A stretch of 64,000 nucleotides of DNA, from assembly GCA_949130485.1 (NCBI GenBank), contig OX422183.1:9576636-9640635 (forward strand), in the 5' to 3' direction. Shown piece after piece: positions 24,145-49,891 of the stretch. This DNA comes from Agelas oroides (taxonomy: Eukaryota > Porifera > Demospongiae > Agelasida > Agelasidae). Positions within the stretch are counted from its first letter, which is position 1, and the number at the start of each line of letters is the position of its first letter. The notes under the pieces were generated by a model. It did not search any database, was not told where the DNA came from, and saw nothing but the letters and a program-made list of their open reading frames with translations. The translations under genes were made by a program, and so were the position numbers.

Positions 24145-25565
24145 GGCCGTCTACAATCACTGGACTGGACTAGTGGACTGGACTGGTGGACTGACACTAA
24201 AAATCATTTTTACGCTTTGTAACAAGACCTACTTGCCTGTGGAGTTGTCTGAAAATCCTGCAGCCTTCTCTCTGTGCATACAGTCACGGAGCAAAAACGT
24301 TAGGCCTACATTAACAGCGAAGGTCTTCGTCCCCAGCAATGTAATGGCTTTATCCTTGCCATATGTTACAGTGTTGACAACCTGACTTAAGTTCCTAGGA
24401 CTACAGATGGTGTCTGGCAAACTGTTAAGCTTTTATTACACCATAATAGCATACTATACACTGTAATGCTCAAGTGTATATTAGTGAGCAATCTGACCAA
24501 GTACAATACTTGTTCTTTTCTTCCTACAAGCCTTGGGTTAAAAAGTTTCCTTGGAGGTAGAGTGCAACAACATGAGGTCTCTAATCGCTGGACTGGAATA
24601 TGGAACGGAACAATGGAATGGAAAATGGAATGGAACAGTGAACGTACAGAGTTACAGCTAACTCGTGTAACTGACGCTGCTCAGTCTAGGTTGAACTACC
24701 TAGTGTATCTCCAGGGCTGTTATCTCACTGCAGAAGCTTTAATGAACAAGTACGGCATTGCCCACCGTCATGCTTCATTATCCTAGCATGGTACTGTTGC
24801 TGGCTCATCATCAGATGCTTTGTTATTCTAGTCTTGCAAGCCTGACTCTCGAACGAAAAACAAGGGTCTGGCTTCGCAAGACCATAGTTATAGTCTTCGT
24901 AGAAAAACTTGAATGTGCTTGATGGCAGAAATTAGTGCTCGATCCTCAGTTTCTTTGCTTCGGTCTTGTCTGTGCACCTCAATCCTTGGTCACACAACCT
25001 TAGTAGCAGCCTTCCTTTACAGTAGTAAGCGTGACTCCTATGTATGGTACTGTAGCTGGTCTCCGGGGACTCTGAGTTCTGACCATGATACCAGACAAGG
25101 AAGAATGCTGCCAACATGCATGGGACTTGCTCATACAGCCTCTACGGTGAGATAAGAACCCTAGACACATAGCTCAACCTTGAAAAACAGCGCCAGCTAC
25201 ACGAGTTAGCTGTAACTATGTACATTCACCGTTCCATTCCATTTTCCATTCCACCGTTCCATTCCATATTCCATTCCAGCGATTAGAGACACCCCATGAG
25301 GTGTTGCTCCCTCAAATCTATAACTTTTCATCTTGACAATTTTTGGAAATGAAACTCCCATTAAGCATTGGCTATTTATTGTCCTTAACACATTTACTAA
25401 TAACTTGCCATCAAATCAATCCTGTGGAAGAAGAAGGCTGTTTGGGGGTTAGTATATGATGCACCATGCAACCCTACAGGCAAGTAAGTCTGATTTTTAG
25501 TGTCAGTCCACCAGTCCAGTCCACCAGTCCAGTCCACTAGTCCAATTCAGTGATTGTAGACGGCC
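24145..25565. mobile_element. Foldback element with long TIRs and a 9 bp TSD
   Basis: The ends GGCCGTCTACAATCACTGGA and the inverse ...GATTGTAGACGGCC are flanked by the perfect 9 bp repeat CTGTGATTC (24136-24144 and 25566-25574). The long arms continue inward: TGGACTGGACT repeats (24160-24195 and 25508-25550), a GGAATGGAA-rich block (24590-24640 and 25225-25280), and TACACGAGTTAGCTGTAACT near 25200. There is no transposase. The 9 bp duplication suggests mobilisation by a Mutator-like transposase. Open frames inside the arms are not genes. Confidence 0.8.
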
Positions 25566-33318: not shown

Positions 33319-33975
33319 CAGTGGCGGATTTAGGGGGGGTAAGGGGGGTGCAAATGCACCCCCCTTTGGCGGCTAGTAATGTATTTTACGTACATAACTG
33401 CACGAGTCCATCAAATGGTTATGCAGCAGTGGCATGCAGCAACAACCACCAGGCACAGTTACACACTCACGTATCAGTTCCTTACTGATCTCCAGACGTT
33501 TGACTAGGCCTAGAGTTGCTTCGAGATATTCAGTTCGGCCCGAGGGGTCCGCCACGGCGCGCCTCAGCGTACGAGATTTCGAAATCCACTGGATTTCACG
33601 TGGATTTCGGATTTCAGAGTGGATTTCTGGATTTCACGGTGGATTTCTGGATTTCAGTTTGGATTTCTGCCGACAGGTTTCTTCTTGTATGTTCTTGGAT
33701 ATTTTAGTTATAGTTCCCAGCTTAGTTGGTTAACTAAATTTTAAAAAGGCCATACTAAAATGTATTTAGTTAAAGTTATAGTTAACTAAAACAACACTGT
33801 CGGACAGTGTACGAGATTTCTTTTGTGACGGACCCCTCGGTTCGGCCTTCCAGCTACATATATAGTATGAATGCGTTCACGTGACCGAAAGTGGGCGTGG
33901 GAACCCAAAAATTTCCGGCGCGCTTTGCGCGCCGGTGACTGAACCCCCCTTTCTAAATTTCTAGATCCGCCACTG
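33319..33975. mobile_element. CAGTGGCGG-ended element, host of a nested MITE
   Basis: The left end is CAGTGGCGGATTTAG and the right end CTAGATCCGCCACTG. TTCAC lies immediately outside both ends (5 bp). Internal G- and C-rich blocks resemble the 27002 element. The 299 bp MITE at 33541-33839 is inserted inside it. Confidence 0.6.
33541..33839. mobile_element. MITE derived from the 42.7-49.8 kb transposon (299 bp, 8 bp TSD)
   Basis: It starts CGAGGGGTCCGCCACGGCGC, as the right end of the large transposon does when inverted. It ends with the inverse of that transposon's left end (...GAGATTTCTTTTGTGACGGA, then CCCCTCG). The direct repeat GTTCGGCC flanks it (33533-33540 and 33840-33847). It keeps a GGATTTCTGGATTTCA-type array (33588-33665), like the subterminal arrays of the large element, but no coding sequence. 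Confidence 0.85.
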
Positions 33976-42541: not shown

Positions 42542-42770
42542 GAAGTAATTGATACACAATATAGATTTGGACGCTGGACACATGGCCAGAAATTAGCGTT
42601 AATCAGTAGAACAGTTCGTCTTTGTATGCGGACTCCGATCTTGCGTTCTGTAACAGCTACAAACGGACGGGACAAGCACCAGCAGAGACCCACGTAAAGC
42701 GTATAAAACTGCTGAGGTAGGATACAGCCAGCCGAGGGGTCCGTCACGAAAGAAATCTCGTACACCGTCG

Positions 42771-42912
42771 GCAGAAATCCAAACTGAAATCCAGAAATCC
42801 ACTGTGAAATCCAGAAATCCAGAAATCCACTATGAAATCCAGAAATCCACTCTGAAATCCAGAAATCCACTCTGAAATCCGGAAATCCACTCTAAAATCC
42901 GGAAATCCAATT
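42771..42912. repeat. Subterminal GAAATCC array, left outer
   Basis: About ten copies of CCAGAAATCCACTCTGAAAT-like units, 10-20 bp each, lie just inside the left end of the transposon. Confidence 0.85.
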
Positions 42913-43022
42913 CAGGATTCTATTAAAATACTCCGCAAATATCCGTATACTTTACATTAATTACACTACAAGGACGTGCACGTGCACCGATTTTCTATGA
43001 CGTAATAGAACGTCACCACAAT

Positions 43023-43073
43023 GAATGACCTTTGTACCCGGCCGATCTTCGCGGTCGGGTACAAAGGTCATTC
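43023..43073. repeat. Perfect 18 bp arm hairpin inside the transposon
   Basis: GAATGACCTTTGTACCCG (43023-43040) and its inverse (43056-43073) flank a 15-base loop. Directly after it, a 45-50 bp tandem repeat containing ATCAACGAACACGC runs over about 43105-43210. Confidence 0.75.
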
Positions 43074-43324
43074 TTCCAAGGTGATGTAATTGCAATTGTC
43101 AGATGTATTATGTATGACGAACATGCAGTACGGTATGAATATGTATGATAATCAACGAACACGCAGTATGCGTATGTATATGTATGACAATCAACGAACA
43201 CGCTGTCTATGCGCTATGTAGCGGTGAACTGCCTGTGACATTGTATTCTGTTAGCATATAGGCTTAGAGGAATGTGGTTCATGATTGTTCATGAGTATAT
43301 TTTAGCTGTAGGCCTATCTTTAGA

Positions 43325-43465
43325 AATAGCGAAATCCAGAAATCCGCTTTGAAATCCAGAAATCCACTTTGAAATCCAGAAATCCACTTTGAAATCCAGA
43401 AATCCACTTTGAAATCCAGAAATCCATTCTGAAATCCGAAATCCACGTGAAATCCAGTGGATTTC
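43325..43465. repeat. Subterminal GAAATCC array, left inner
   Basis: Regular AGAAATCCACTTTGAAATCC units, about seven copies, end with GTGAAATCCAGTGGATTTCG, which is itself palindromic. Confidence 0.85.
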
Positions 43466-43597
43466 GAAATAGACGCCGTAAAGTACAGCGTAAACTCCGC
43501 ATTGAACGTATAAATACAACTTACGGTACGATAAACTGCGCATGCGCGCTTCTAAATTTGTCGCGGGTACTTCGCGGGCAATAGCAGCGATAGTAGC

Positions 43598-46500
43598 ATG
43601 GCGAGCAAAGAGAACCCGGCAGGGAATGAGTCTGGAAGGCAAGAGATTAATGATCTGCCGGTAAAGAGTCACTTGGGCAAGCCAGAAATTAACAATGACA
43701 AGCGCAAATTGGACAAAGGTAGGTATATAAAAGCATAGAGAGTATGGCAAATACAAAACATGCCTGTATTATAATTTATGTGGATGGACTGGCACTTTGC
43801 AGTTTAACAGTGCAACCTTTCTCAACTACACTTTGAAACAGATACATATATACTGGGTCGCTGCATCTCATGCTACAAGAACAAGAGAGGGGCAGAGTAC
43901 TGTCGGTTGGTGCAGCAGCACAAGGCTGTTCGGGCAACTGCATGCTGTGAATGTGAACAAAATGGGAACAGTGTCACAAAATGTCGACAAGAATTACATC
44001 ATGATGGTGAAAATGCATTCTACATGAACGAAGTTACCTCAACAGGGTCAGAACTCCCACAATGTTGCCTGGAACTACAAGGTCTCCAGATGAAGTGCTA
44101 CTCCTCAAGACCTGAAGAAATGAATGAGCCATATGTAACAGGGTACATGGTGCCTTACAGTGATCGCAACTGGGAAGATTGGTTTCAACGATTCACTCTA
44201 CAGACAGGATGTGAATACACAATTCATTCAGGAAAGCAGAGCAACACACAGTCAAGGGAGACAGGAGTGATGGAGACGGAAGGAAAACTCTTCACATACA
44301 CTTCTGCATGGTCACACGCCTACAGCTGTTTGCGTGGTGGTACAGGTCGATTCAAGTCACTTTGTCTTGGGAAGAAAAATCGCTCATCACTTGGAACTAG
44401 ACGATTCGGATGTAAAGCAAATTTGCAGGTGCGACTCTTGAATGTGAGTAATGGTGTGCACGTTTTGGAAATCCAAATACCAATGAGTGCTCACTTACCT
44501 GCACACAACCCATCCTCGGTCACTGACCAACTGACCATGAAGCCGCTTCCACAGATAGAGGAGAAAATTGCTGAGCTTGTTCAAGAGTCCTTTCTGAACC
44601 AAAGGGCTTTAAGGCTTTCCCTAAAAACATGGGTGGAGAAGGAGTTGATACCCAAACACCTCAATGAAGGTGTGATAACCAGCAAGCCATCTGATTACAA
44701 TCGAGCATACTACCCAACGGCTGAAGACATCAGAGTAATGGTCAAAAAGGCAATTACACGAGAGCGAAATTCCCTTTTTGACCAGGAGGCAGTACTTCAG
44801 CTTCTAAAAGAAGAACAAGCCAGGAATGGTTTGAAGTACTATTTTCGGCAGTACAGCAAATGTGATAAAAGGTAATGCAAATCTAAATCAGTAGCCATGC
44901 ATGCACTTCATGTCTTGTACAAACAGTATACTAATTGCCAGCCATTAACCCGCCTCTGTTTATGTAACACTATACTCTGTGGTATATATGGAACATAAAT
45001 ATATGCCTCAGTTGTGACAACTACTTAGGGCAAAGGAAGTGGTCCTCTTTTGAAGTATAGGTGATACTGAGCTCAGGGCAATAGGAAGCAATAGGAAGTG
45101 GGTTCTTTATTTAGAGTACTTACTTCACTTTTGCTTCATTCCTAAAGGAGTCGTTCAAGTGGAGAACAGCCAGATAACCAAGCACAAACTGAAAGGTAAG
45201 TTTTGCGGAAATTATGGAAGATATATTGTAAGTATACTAATCTCTATACACAATTCACTTTAGAAATCCAGACATTCTGAAGGAGATACATGAGGCAGTT
45301 AAAAATCTGTGAGAAGTTGAGTCAGAGGGGCTTATTACTCCAGATGCAGACCAATCATTCCTCTTAGTCCTTCAAACCAAGCAGCAAAGTAAATGGCTGC
45401 AGCAGTATGGGAACATAGTCACATGCATGGATGCAACATACAAAACACTACGGTATGGATTCCCGTGCTTTTTTCTGGTGGTAAAAACTGCACTTGGAAT
45501 TGGTCGTGTGGTGGGGACTATCATTCCTCAATATGAGACAGAAGAGTTTATACAGGAGGGGTTACAGAAGTTAAAAGAATGGAATCCAGGATGGTCTCCT
45601 CAGTTTTTCATGACTGACAAGAGTGCCCAAGAGCTAGGTACACAATTGTATGGGGATGTGATGTATAGTATAAACAATGAATTGTTTTTGTTGTACCTGA
45701 TCCACCAGGGGCTGTTGGTGAAGTTCACCCTCACTGCATCAGGTTGATCTGTGACTTCCACACTTTCCAAGCACTTGAGAGATGGGTTAACTGCTCACAG
45801 CATGGTGTTCCACCTGAAGTGAGAAGCATTGTCAAGGCAGCATTCAAGGAGCTTGTTTATGCCAAGAGTGGTTAGTAGATTGAACAGACAGCATTTTCAC
45901 ATGTACCGTTGTACATACTGTACTTTCCCAATCTGCAGAGGGACAATATGATGAAATGCTGTCTAAGATCAAGGGTTCTCACTGGTACACAAACAATGCT
46001 CAGCTACAGGCCTACCTAGAAAATGAGTGGCTCAATTGCAAACCTGTAAGTGTATCCCACCTCTTTAAATAGTATGAGTAGTAATGGTATTGTTATTGGT
46101 TACCACAGCTCTGGTCTCACATACATCGACAACGTTTCCACAACAGTGTTGACACCAACAATTTTACAGAATCTTTCAACAATGTCCTCAAAAACCATTA
46201 TCTTACCCTTCGCAATGACAAGTCAGTCTTTTCTCTTACCAAGATTCTCCTCCAGTGTGTCTTCCCAGACCAAGAAAGAGAATATACGGTTCTAACAGCC
46301 AGACAGACAACAGCTTACCGACAGCCAAGAAATGCCTTACCTCATTTCTTAACAAATCGACCAAGTTCAGTCACAAGTGCCTGCTTACTTAACATTGAAA
46401 AAGGTAAAGCAATAGAAATCTCTTCCATCAAAGAAGAGGATGCTGTGAATGGTGTGTACAGTGTAAAATCAAACAGAGGAATGTACAAAGTACAAATCCA

Positions 46501-48941
46501 GGAAGGAAGTTGTTCATGCCCTTACTTCACACAGAGTAGAATCCCCTGCAAGCACATCTTCAGCATTATCCAGAATTTCAAGTGGAGGTGGGAAGACTTA
46601 CCTCACTCCCTCACAGAAAGCCCATTCATGACACTTGACAATGACATACTACAGGATGAACACTCTGATTTGTGTATTGTTGAAGAGGACAAGTCGGCTC
46701 CATTTACATCAACTCCAACACCACTCCATCAGACACCTGGCTCCAAACTCCTTCGCCTGCAAAAGCAGTTGAGGGATGAACTTGCCAAGTGCAGTGCAGC
46801 TGTTTTCATGGTTGATGATATAGCCATCTTGGAAAATGTGCAGAGAAAGGTACACAGCATCCATTCAGAGCTGCTATCAACATCTTCCATCTGCGAGAAG
46901 GAAGAGGAGCTACCCATTCTCAAGAACTTAATGAAGGAGGAGGTGTCAGAGTATCGGAGAAAAGCAAAAGTCATAGCACGAGCAAATCAGCTGACTCGTC
47001 GATACAAGAAACTGAAGCGAAAGAGCAACACAGGATGTCCAATACAACCCAAACGACTAAGACTAAAGGACGATCCCCTCAATGCAGCAACAAGACCTAG
47101 TGTGGGTCGCCCTAAAAGCAAAAAGGCAGACACGAATAAGAAAACGACTGGCACAGGTATGAGTCACCCCATCTATCACCAGTATTTTCCTTCAACCTTC
47201 TTACTTTTTCATGCATTTGGCTATCAATAATTCTTTTGCAGGTAACAGTAACATTGCATTTGAGCACCAAGAATTGGACGCATTACCCTTGATTGAAAGC
47301 AACAAGGTACCTTTCTTTTCACCCTAGTAGTATTGTTGATAAAGTCTGTTCACATATCAATGTTTCTTTTGCACAGGAAATGACTGATCTCCCCAGCAGC
47401 ATTACCACTTTGGCACAAAGTCAACTTAAACCAGGTACCTTACACATACATGTAGGTACATCAAATAAACAATCTGCAGTTAAACACAATCAACAGTCTA
47501 GTGCAGACATCCTTGGGACCAAAATATGTAAGGTGTCTTCATTTTCGGAGGAGATTAGGATCATGAAGTTGGACATAGTCGAATGTCCTGATCAGATTTA
47601 ATTCTAGCATGTCCTTCAAAAGGGATTGATTATGCTACTCAGGAACCAAAAAAAGAACATGTGGTCAGTGCAAGAGTGTGGATTGTGGTCAGTGCCGATA
47701 CTGCTTGGATAAGAAGAAGTTTGGCGGGCACAACCGGCTAAAACAATGCTGCATCCACAGACGGTGTAATACCTACAATACTTCTTTGAGTGAAAACAAA
47801 CGACCTCCACCCACACAATCAGCTGTTCACGACACAACCAAGGAATTTCGTGGTATGTTTGGCTGATGTTTGTTTACAAACTACTACATGCAAGTGTTCA
47901 ATGCAAGCTTACCTCCATTAGGGCACAGTGTGTCGCTGCTAGGATGTCAAACACCTGCAAAATCAAAAGAAGAAGTACTGAAAGTAAGTGATACATGGTG
48001 CTGCATTGCAATGGCGTAGCTACACCAGGACCCATGCAGGCCTAAGACCTGCTGAATTGAGTGAGTGCCCAAGTAAAACAATATAGTAATCCAAGGTCAA
48101 AAATCATTGCCCAAAACTAAGGTGCTTGCATCCTCACTCGTTGATGCATTTGCCACCTTGTTTGCATGCTTACTGTCTGTTTGGTGGGGATCAAGATACT
48201 GTATGCAACTATGTGCATACACTACTGTAGGTATAGTAAGAAGTGCTCTTGGCAGATGACAATGGCCTAAAAATGGCTTCAGAATGGCTCTAAATTCAGA
48301 GATCATGCTGTGCCCGAGTATCTTTACAATCCTGGCTACACCACTGGTTCAGTATATCATGTGATTGCATAAATTATACATCTACTACTATAGGAATTAC
48401 TAACCAATTCAGCGTATGTAAAAATTGGAGACTTTCCTGACGAACCTATCCCACCTGAAGTAGGGAACCCCTCCAAGATGCCCAAGTTCAAGGCAGAAGA
48501 CATTGCACACATTTTGAGCTGTAGTGGTAGGAAAGTGAAGAAAATGCTACCAGATGGAAACTGTCTCTTCAGAAGTCTATCATTTTGCCTTCATCGTTCC
48601 CAAGACAGGCATCTAGAGATAAGGAAAATACTTGTGCAATTCATTGAAAGAAATGGTAACAACTACAAACATTTACTTTTTGGACGTACACTTAGTGAAC
48701 ACTTGGAGAGTATGATGTGTGGGGTACTCAGCTTGAACTTCAAGCTGCTGCAGACTACTATGAGATGTGTATTTATCTTCTCACCAAGAGACAGCAGCAA
48801 GAGAGGTACCATTGGCATCGATACACACCCAGGAACAGTGCACCTACAGACAACTTGCCACACATCGAACTTGCTCACCCAGGATCAGTACACTTTGATC
48901 CCATCCTTGATGCTGCCACACTTCAGATTCCGAAGACGTAG
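43598..48941 (+). CDS. MULE transposase with SWIM, CXXC and OTU domains (12 exons, two lesions)
   Basis: Exons: 43598-43718, 43842-44871, 45148-45195, 45264-45637, 45709-45870, 45939-46045, 46109-47156, 47242-47306, 47377-47434, 47643-47852, 47922-47983, 48394-48941. All have GT..AG borders and agreeing phases, totalling about 1,277 residues. Start: ATG in AGTAGCATGG. Residues about 45-85 are Cys-rich (CISCYKNKRG, CCECEQNG). About 175-262 is a WRKY/GCM1-like zinc domain (FGCKANL, SAHLPAH). The DDE core has D456 (MDATYKT), D518 (MTDKS), C-DFH at 539-542 and E635 (FTESFNN). The SWIM finger has CSC at 749-751 and CKH at 761-763. A Lys/Arg-rich linker follows. CXXC lies at 1011-1046 (DCGQCRYC, KFGG, KQCC). 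OTU runs from about 1130 to 1270 (DGNC with C1152; H1262 in VHFDPIL). TGA at 45310-45312 (codon 416) and a one-base frameshift near 48713-48718 break it. The role is transposition; CXXC targeting and OTU deubiquitination are inferred. Confidence 0.8.
47643..47852 (+). CDS. CXXC zinc-finger exon of the transposase gene
   Basis: This exon lies between CTACTCAG and GTATGT. It reads RTCGQCKSVDCGQCRYC, followed by KFGG, RLKQCC and RRC, which is the signature of CXXC fingers found in DNMT1, MLL and CpG-binding proteins. The canonical finger has a third CxxC step before the DCGxC block; here it is missing, while an extra Cys follows KQ. Confidence 0.8.
48004..48345. mobile_element. hAT-like MITE in an intron of the transposase gene
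   Basis: It starts CAATGGCGTAGCTACAC and ends GGCTACACCACTG, like the MITE at 13983-14319. No clean target duplication was found. It sits between the exon ending at 47983 and the OTU exon, so an intact splice is still possible. Confidence 0.55.
48394..48941 (+). CDS. OTU cysteine-protease exon of the transposase gene
   Basis: The acceptor is CTATAG. The exon contains LPDGNCLFRSLSF (catalytic Asp and Cys), HLEIRKILVQFI, then in the next frame WGTQLELQAAA and GSVHFDPIL (catalytic His). The frame changes at 48713-48718, where one base appears lost. It ends at TAG 48939-48941. These are the standard blocks of OTU-family deubiquitinating proteases. Confidence 0.8.
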
Positions 48942-49063
48942 GGGTCCCAACAAAAAATCCAAGAGCGAACGAACTTGACTCAAGTATGCTGAAATCCAAG
49001 AACCAAGTGACCTTGTTTGTAAACTACAGTTACAATAGTTTCTATGACTTTCGTTCTTCCGAA

Positions 49064-49073
49064 AATAAATAAA
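49064..49073 (+). terminator. Poly(A) signal of the transposase gene
   Basis: Overlapping AATAAA hexamers (AATAAATAAA) lie about 125 bases after the stop of the last exon, inside the transposon. Confidence 0.55.
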
Positions 49074-49891
49074 GCGAACAGACGGTTATGTGCCAAAATA
49101 TGGCCATTATGGGATTTTTGATTATATATGGAGGATTATATATGAACATACCTTTAACAGATATCCACGCGAGTGGTCAAGCTATTTTAATACTCTACCA
49201 ATAGTAAATAATCAATTGCACTGGTGCTTGCTAAATTTACTTTTCAAAAGTCACTTCAAACTATCAATTATTCTTCTATGGGAGAAATGTATTGCAACAT
49301 AAAATAACAGCTAATGTAGTCTCTTGACAGTTATAAACTTGAGTGGTCCAGGCATTTTTGCACAAGATACATCAAGTGAAATCCATCAGTACCACTAGTT
49401 TCATAGCGAAGCTTCAAAAGTCACTTGAACCGAACTGCGCCCAATTTTCGGCACTTGACCCTTTCAAGTCCAAGACGAATTGACTGAAAATAGCTTTGCA
49501 GCACCAACTTTTATAGTCCGGTTTTTATATATCTCAGATAGATAGTTAGTTCTAGTACAACAGATTTGAAATCGGAGCACCTTCGATTTTTTCGTTGGGA
49601 GCCCTAACTGGCGAAGTCCGTCCCTCAACTGGATGGTGCCACAGAGTACCTTGAAGACATTCTTTAGTGTTTACAGTACGTAAGAGTTAGGCTATGAATA
49701 TCAAATTCTATTTATACGTTCAATGCGGAGTTTACACTGTACTTTACGGGATCCTCGTACGCCGAGGCGCGCCGTGGCGGACCCCTCGCAGCCAGCCTAG
49801 TCTCGCAAGCCCGACCCACTTCCGCTAGAGAAGGGAGAGGGTCTGGTGAACAGCGTATACAAGCCGTGTCCCGCCGCACTGTACGAATCTC

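Follow-up and report, generated by a model that had tools for sequence, protein, structure and literature searches.

Does a DNA transposon in a sponge genome carry its own reader of CpG methylation and its own ubiquitin protease, and if so, what might it use them for? A locus on contig OX422183.1 of Agelas oroides raises this question: in a 64,000-nucleotide stretch (the window), an earlier sequence-only reading had described a Mutator-like element (MULE) whose transposase was fused to a CXXC finger and an OTU domain. We find that the window copy is a decayed representative of a MULE DNA transposon lineage, and that the combination of MULE, CXXC, and OTU is a real and recurrent architecture. 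Our best explanation, in which we have slightly better than even confidence when all of its parts are taken jointly, is that better-preserved copies of this lineage encode a single transposase of ~1300 aa, comprising an ALS2CR8-like N-terminus, an RNaseH-like DDE nuclease, a SWIM finger, a CXXC finger, and an OTU cysteine-protease domain. Established for the lineage are a fused gene model in one sister copy, a domain order that a dozen or more families have in common, terminal inverted repeats (TIRs), 9–10-bp target-site duplications (TSDs), recent copies, and CpG-rich insertion sites; zinc ligands and OTU motifs are kept in most of the families compared. Genome-wide profile searches covered the 259-Mb assembly (G000, with the window on contig C1), and labels such as L021, L022, L031, and L034 denote loci of relatives in the same genome.

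The gene lies on the forward strand and is divided among 12 exons. From an ATG at 43598, it runs through exon 1 (43598..43718), exon 2 (43842..44871), which encodes the ALS2CR8-like N-terminal region (below cut-off in the window family, 2.8e-29 in family L034), and exon 3 (45148..45195) to the ZSWIM/MULE RNaseH-like (DDE) domain, which begins in exon 4 (45264..45637) and continues, with the motif LICDFH, in exon 5 (45709..45870). Beyond exon 6 (45939..46045), exon 7 (46109..47156) encodes a TNNFTESFN motif, the SWIM finger (~46484-46558), and a basic linker; further linker is supplied by exons 8 (47242..47306) and 9 (47377..47434), the zf-CXXC finger (47645-47767) by exon 10 (47643..47852), and the OTU domain, after exon 11 (47922..47983), by exon 12 (48394..48941). 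The motifs MDATYK, LICDFH, and TNNFTESFN, recognized by eye, mark the candidate catalytic D, D, E region.

Applied to L021, a sister copy 98% identical to the window copy, this model yields 11 GT-AG introns and 1300 codons that form one uninterrupted frame between ATG and stop, and the 12 exons drawn by the sequence-only reading are thus right in outline. The resulting 1300-aa protein exceeded Pfam cut-offs for every domain at issue—RNaseH (1.1e-15), CXXC (3.6e-11), OTU (1.4e-9), MULE (1.1e-7), and SWIM (1.1e-6). Profile support in the window copy was partial: ZSWIM-type RNaseH (PF21056, 7.5e-16), SWIM (1.3e-7), and zf-CXXC (1.5e-9) were above cut-off, MULE (PF10551) fell slightly under it (23.9 vs 27.6 bits; E 6e-5), and OTU, divided between two frames, was below it (E 0.05 and 0.08). 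That the four domains belong to one gene, as had been proposed, is borne out by the fused frame of L021, but the window copy does not hold them in one frame. It carries an in-frame TGA stop (45310..45312, forward strand, identified by comparison with L021), a 9-nt deletion at 47668 that costs the CXXC finger its Cys3, a 10-nt deletion near 48715 that puts OTU out of frame (one frame in L021), and two inserts; judged from these lesions, it is unable to make the full protein. We rejected decay of the CXXC finger as a trait of the family, as among 11 aligned sequences Cys3 is missing in the window copy only.

Both C-terminal domains bear the hallmarks of their families. All 10 aligned relatives had the eight cysteines of the CXXC finger, and 9 of the 10 had the KQ pair, in keeping with the zf-CXXC pattern of eight zinc-binding cysteines and a [KR][FY][GS]G ... 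KQ loop; L037 has one residue fewer between Cys1 and Cys2. Its nearest solved chains were KMT2B and MLL (5e-12), followed by FBXL19, KDM2B, DNMT1, and CFP1. The OTU domain was recognized by Pfam in L021 (2.1e-10), L034 (8.1e-15), and L037 (1.3e-17), and the catalytic D, C, and H appear as DGNC...H[FY]D in L021, L034, L037, and L027; the nearest solved chains to the L034 domain were OTUD5, OTUD1, and OTUD3. The OTU rows of L031 and L035 are incomplete. Estimates of dN/dS were made for seven pairs, with ratios of 0.41–1.44 in the five usable ones, values that come from few sites and mostly from young or broken copies.

The arrangement recurs across the genome. Profile matches numbered at least 99 for CXXC (95 above cut-off), at least 100 for OTU, and at least 90 for RNaseH. 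Among the 99 CXXC matches listed, 50 were followed on the same strand by an OTU match no more than 3.5 kb away, and none was preceded by one; RNaseH lay within 8 kb upstream of 43 and downstream of one, the latter belonging to a neighbouring element. Both partners were present for 36 CXXC matches and neither for 42. Because OTU lies downstream in 50 cases vs none upstream, and 36 of the 99 also have RNaseH upstream, the pairing of CXXC and OTU goes beyond chance, and on the strength of these 36 colinear places we rejected an assembly artefact or chance juxtaposition. The 42 matches without either partner include L033, whose 638-aa open reading frame (ORF) resembles by eye a host CFP1-like gene, and many others that are partial or stop-containing. 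In a tree built from 51 RNaseH rows, which sample the listed places (L079 was omitted for short coverage and L026 did not qualify), all 30 CXXC-associated rows joined 11 others in one 41-row group, composed of two subgroups (support 94/90 and 96/96) and spanning, by eye, at least a dozen families. Ten other ZSWIM/MULE rows fell outside the group. Scanning viral contigs with the transposase exon of L034 turned up no relative.

Several families retain the marks of recent movement. Exact 9- or 10-bp TSDs flank six loci (L021, L022, L034, L029, L039, and L027); in L029, L034, and L039, the TSDs are of 10 bp, the 41-bp TIRs are 100% identical within each element, and the copies are 98.6–99.4% identical over their longest aligned stretches. 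For L031, L035, and L036, whose ends are approximate, no TSD was found. Scoring 40 of 52 candidates for the L034 left end gave 11 long matches, 7 of which are identical across 120 bp, and another 17 ends that match only the first 32 bp of the TIR. These comparisons indicate that the copies are recent; the 17 ends are presumably non-autonomous relatives, and in three of the loci (L086, L088, and L096) the other end seems, by eye, to lie within ~100 bp. Loci L081–L097 agree with the L034-family TIR over its first 32 bp, then diverge, and are very CpG-rich.

Where do these elements land? The genome at large is CpG-poor, with an observed/expected ratio (o/e) of 0.39 at 14 arbitrary points and 0.43 in 183 window tiles, and it contains a DNMT1-like methyltransferase-domain match with a CXXC match 4 kb upstream; given these two features, CpG methylation is likely in this host. 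Insertion flanks looked quite different. Over 300 bp, CpG o/e was 1.08 beside 17 of the 32-bp ends and 0.91 beside 21 full-length-type ends (L102 omitted because its end differs, one duplicate flank removed), with Mann-Whitney P values against background of 6e-10 and 2e-9, respectively, and GC content was 0.46–0.47 vs 0.42–0.45. Because the copies are nearly identical, this composition should predate insertion. In 44 half-sites (the 38 flanks plus six from L021, L022, and L027), CpG peaked 10–20 bp beyond the element end, at 55 of 440 positions vs 260 of 4400 further out (P 2e-6). This shoulder was seen in all three half-site sets (118, 129, and 133 CpG per kb), and the AT-rich duplication itself held 11 CpG in 440 positions. 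As a control, we used a family of miniature inverted-repeat transposable elements (MITEs) with 9-bp TSDs, represented by 20 half-sites after 5 of the initial 25 were dropped for flanks overlapping CXXC-MULEs. Here, the 10–20-bp interval contained 6 CpG in 200 positions, and half-sites with a CpG in it numbered 6 of 20, compared with 35 of 44 for the CXXC-MULEs (P 2e-4). CpG-rich flanks and shoulder are compatible with CXXC-guided targeting, without proof of it; they lend indirect support to the earlier suggestion that the transposase reads host methylation to choose targets, in which a causal role for the finger is hypothetical.

The domains suggest how such an enzyme might work. The DDE part would cut and join DNA, as is general to MULEs, while the CXXC finger would anchor the transposition complex at unmethylated CpG next to the cut, guiding insertions into CpG-island-like, presumably open DNA in which new copies might be less likely to be silenced. 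Docking on unmethylated CpG that adjoins the target cut is, on present indications, the most likely use of the finger; alternatively or in addition, it may bind the ends of the element itself. Ubiquitin removal is the probable function of the OTU domain, which might act on the transposase itself or on target-site proteins. We put forward only tentatively, as something short of an even chance, the broader proposal that a whole lineage of eukaryotic DNA transposons has built a reader of unmethylated CpG and a deubiquitinase into its transposase, with the reader docking on CpGs that straddle the cut and so directing landing in CpG-island-like DNA, and the OTU domain perhaps erasing a local ubiquitin mark, such as that on histone H2A which KDM2B-type CXXC proteins help to place, or sparing the transposase from degradation. 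If true, this would be a natural case of an integrase-like enzyme steered by DNA methylation state. The work touches two open questions—why transposons acquire ubiquitin-protease domains, and how MULEs locate open, hypomethylated DNA—and a transposase with a CpG-reader-type finger, a CpG signature at its insertions, and near-identical recent copies makes both experimentally tractable.

A number of observations weigh against this explanation. Its evidence consists of DNA sequence, read through gene models, and only in L021 is the whole frame shown to be open; it is broken in the window copy, L022, and L023. The 41-row group has modest support (86/33), and 11 rows in it lack a CXXC match within 10 kb; ten in-clade rows so labelled are most simply decayed copies, and L063, with only an OTU match nearby, was for that reason not counted as CXXC-associated. 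The OTU domain is not intact throughout, since L038 has Q in place of the catalytic His and L031 ends early. The shoulder is not purely a matter of CpG, because it is also GC-rich (GC 0.586) and GpC is raised as well (49 beside 55 CpG). The control is small, with 17 of its 20 half-sites taken from loci chosen for CXXC matches, and in the wider flank its contrast with the CXXC-MULEs is weak (37 vs 52 CpG per kb; P 0.012). Finally, we know of no CXXC finger in maize Mu, an element for which the available text of PMC2774946 reports five times more insertions in hypomethylated DNA and a preference for GC-rich DNA.

The behaviour of Mu, together with the weakly richer wide flank, leads to the rival account that the CpG bias is a general MULE habit of entering open, hypomethylated chromatin, with CXXC and OTU as accessory or captured domains that have some other targeting role or none. 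We regard this account as doubtful, though it calls for serious attention. It is at odds with the 10–20-bp shoulder, which the control MITE family lacks, with the retention of all eight CXXC cysteines in every relative compared, and with the animal MULE Muta1, described in the available part of PMC5225508 as having no apparent target sequence preference. An unlikely second account is that the CXXC finger chiefly binds the element's own CpG-rich ends and so limits the transposase to unmethylated copies, as a form of self-recognition or anti-silencing comparable to that of VANC proteins, which, according to the portion of PMC5735166 consulted, bind motifs in VANDAL elements. In the outer 50 bp of six families, CpG does reach 19 per 300 bp on the left and 20 per 300 bp on the right, with an o/e of ~1.15 vs 0.35 inside. 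Yet self-binding does not explain why the flanking target DNA is equally CpG-rich (37 CpG in 600 bp); moreover, the left-end excess reaches just P 0.003 relative to random windows of the 64-kb stretch, no confirmed TSD accompanies the ends of L031, L035, and L036, three of the six families, and CpG-rich ends could be a promoter trait.

A further alternative would make CXXC-OTU a second, separate gene within the element. In its favour, exons 8, 9, and 11 of the linker region are short, family L034 has ATGs upstream in its CXXC ORF, and the model was built on genomic DNA, not transcripts. Against a separate gene stand the open 1300-codon model of L021, an AG|G that resembles a splice acceptor and keeps the same phase ahead of the CXXC block in 8 of 8 families, and the absence of an in-frame ATG before CXXC from the CXXC ORF in 7 of 8; one continuous 231-aa ORF of family L031 takes in CXXC and most of OTU. 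Acceptor phase and missing ATGs, with the 1300-codon model, led us to reject the separate gene, which we consider very improbable, in favour of the fused transposase.

The ends of the window copy required revision. An element of 7 kb between 42733 and 49788 with 8-bp TSDs had been proposed; the true element occupies 43475..49754 on the forward strand, its left border being common to L021, L022, and L023 and its right border to L021, L022, L024, L025, and L026. The left TIR (43475..43522, forward strand) is 94% complementary to 49703-49749, and the same ends are flanked by TSDs in L021 and L022; the right TIR (49703..49754, reverse strand), which closes with GGGATCC, is defined by this inverted-repeat match and by the right ends of relatives. 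In related copies, the inverted repeat is ~50 bp long and begins GGATSCCGTAAAGTACAG, and exact 9-bp TSDs (TTTTAATTA and TTTAAATTA, in L021 and L022) abut the equivalents of 43475 and 49754. A GGAT that precedes the equivalent of 43475 in L021, L022, and L023 is missing from the left of the window copy. The right TSD of the latter, TCGTACGCC (49755..49763), matches the probable left TSD, TCGTACACC (42758..42766), at 8 of 9 positions. When the insert is removed, the outer portions to the left (42733..42766, the outer arm of the earlier proposal) and right (49764..49788) rejoin as a 59-bp sequence with 10 CpG between CAGCCAGC repeats, and the MULE appears to have been inserted into this CpG-rich sequence, which holds the outer CGAGGGGTCC arms and the CAGCCAGC repeats. 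That these arms—16 bp long, 94% complementary, and with CAGCCAGC on either side—are the transposon's own ends is scarcely credible: they are most likely part of the target, because relatives end elsewhere, at the equivalents of 43475 and 49754 and in two cases with their own 9-bp TSDs, because the 59-bp site can be rejoined, and because the arm pattern had no exact match in the 127 loci of the genome examined.

Two inserts set the window copy apart from its relatives. Loci L021–L026, mutually ~87–99% identical in their aligned parts, contain the segment 43475-49754 wholly or partly. Absent between TSD and left end in L021–L023 is a 708-bp insert (42767..43474) with GAAATCCAGAAATCC tandem arrays; the insert's first 14 bases occur once more in the window (33661-33674). 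A second insert of ~680 bp near 48935 (48936..49611) is absent from L021–L026, and ~450 bp of it resemble the 3′ part of family L038: positions 48939-49387 match that part of an L038-type CXXC-OTU element at 91% identity across 449 bp, a hint of nesting or recombination between families.

How new is this element? MULEs themselves, OTU domains in transposons, and CXXC fingers were already known; what appears to be new is a MULE variant with both CXXC and OTU in its transposase. The lineage belongs with the ZSWIM/ALS2CR8-like branch of the Mutator superfamily, with which it shares the MULE DDE domain (PF10551 and PF21056 above cut-off in L021), the SWIM finger, TIRs, and exact TSDs of 9–10 bp at six loci, within the 8–11 bp of the superfamily; it differs in adding C-terminal CXXC and OTU domains in one protein. 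A FLYWCH finger is typical of Phantom-type animal MULEs. Such a finger occurs in 13 of 14 Aedes MULE families in the available part of PMC5225508; Pfam searches of the L021 1300-aa protein found neither a FLYWCH nor an integrase family up to E 0.1, which sets it apart from both Phantom-type and Ginger1 elements. Ginger1 likewise has a transposase with a C-terminal OTU domain, but its DDE is of the Gypsy-integrase type, and the main text of PMC2836005, as available, does not mention CXXC. The same source, in the part available, describes OTU carriage by Helitrons as well as Ginger1; Helitrons also encode OTU within a transposon, but through a rolling-circle RepHel and without a DDE transposase. 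Mutator elements bearing Ulp1, cited in the same text, pair a MULE with a ubiquitin-like-modifier protease, but one that is Ulp1 instead of OTU, and CXXC goes unmentioned in the text available. The activity of transposon OTU domains had not yet been tested as of PMC9741609, in the part consulted. MLL/KMT2, KDM2, DNMT1, and CFP1 share the eight-cysteine, KQ-loop pattern of the CXXC finger but are host chromatin proteins and not transposases. Fungal KDZ transposons encoding TET/JBP, as described in the portion of their literature consulted, are likewise DNA transposons with a DNA-methylation-linked enzyme, but have a different transposase family; to our knowledge they carry no OTU domain. Full-text literature searches, with Repbase and most subscription journals outside their reach, found no MULE that carries CXXC, alone or together with OTU, in agreement with the statement of the sequence-only reading that no such family was known to it, and an earlier description is possible. 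Neither term occurs in the main text, as available, of the MULE review PMC6446971 (supplements not covered) or of PMC10027918 or PMC12062965, and the CXXC passages seen in PMC12460157 and PMC11244446 deal with host genes.

Other elements were noted near the lineage or in the window. Loci L051–L055 form a MULE group without a CXXC match within 10 kb, with reading frames of up to 1134 aa and several near-identical copies. On contig C2, a close relative of the window copy has RNaseH and OTU matches only ~0.4 kb apart, with no CXXC match among those listed, and is perhaps an internal-deletion derivative. Upstream of the L031 CXXC-OTU MULE, a 406-aa ORF (L031:907-2124) is pogo/jerky-type transposase-like by eye. 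The window itself holds a further TIR element at 24145-25565 (GGCCGTCTACAATCACTGRA, 9-bp TSD CTGTGATTC; 727 first-look candidates genome-wide) and, at 92-641, a MITE-like element with TIR TAGCCTCGTTCCCAGGCC and 9-bp TSD GTCCTAGGG, which is abundant, with 897 first-look candidates and nine places identical over 100 bases.

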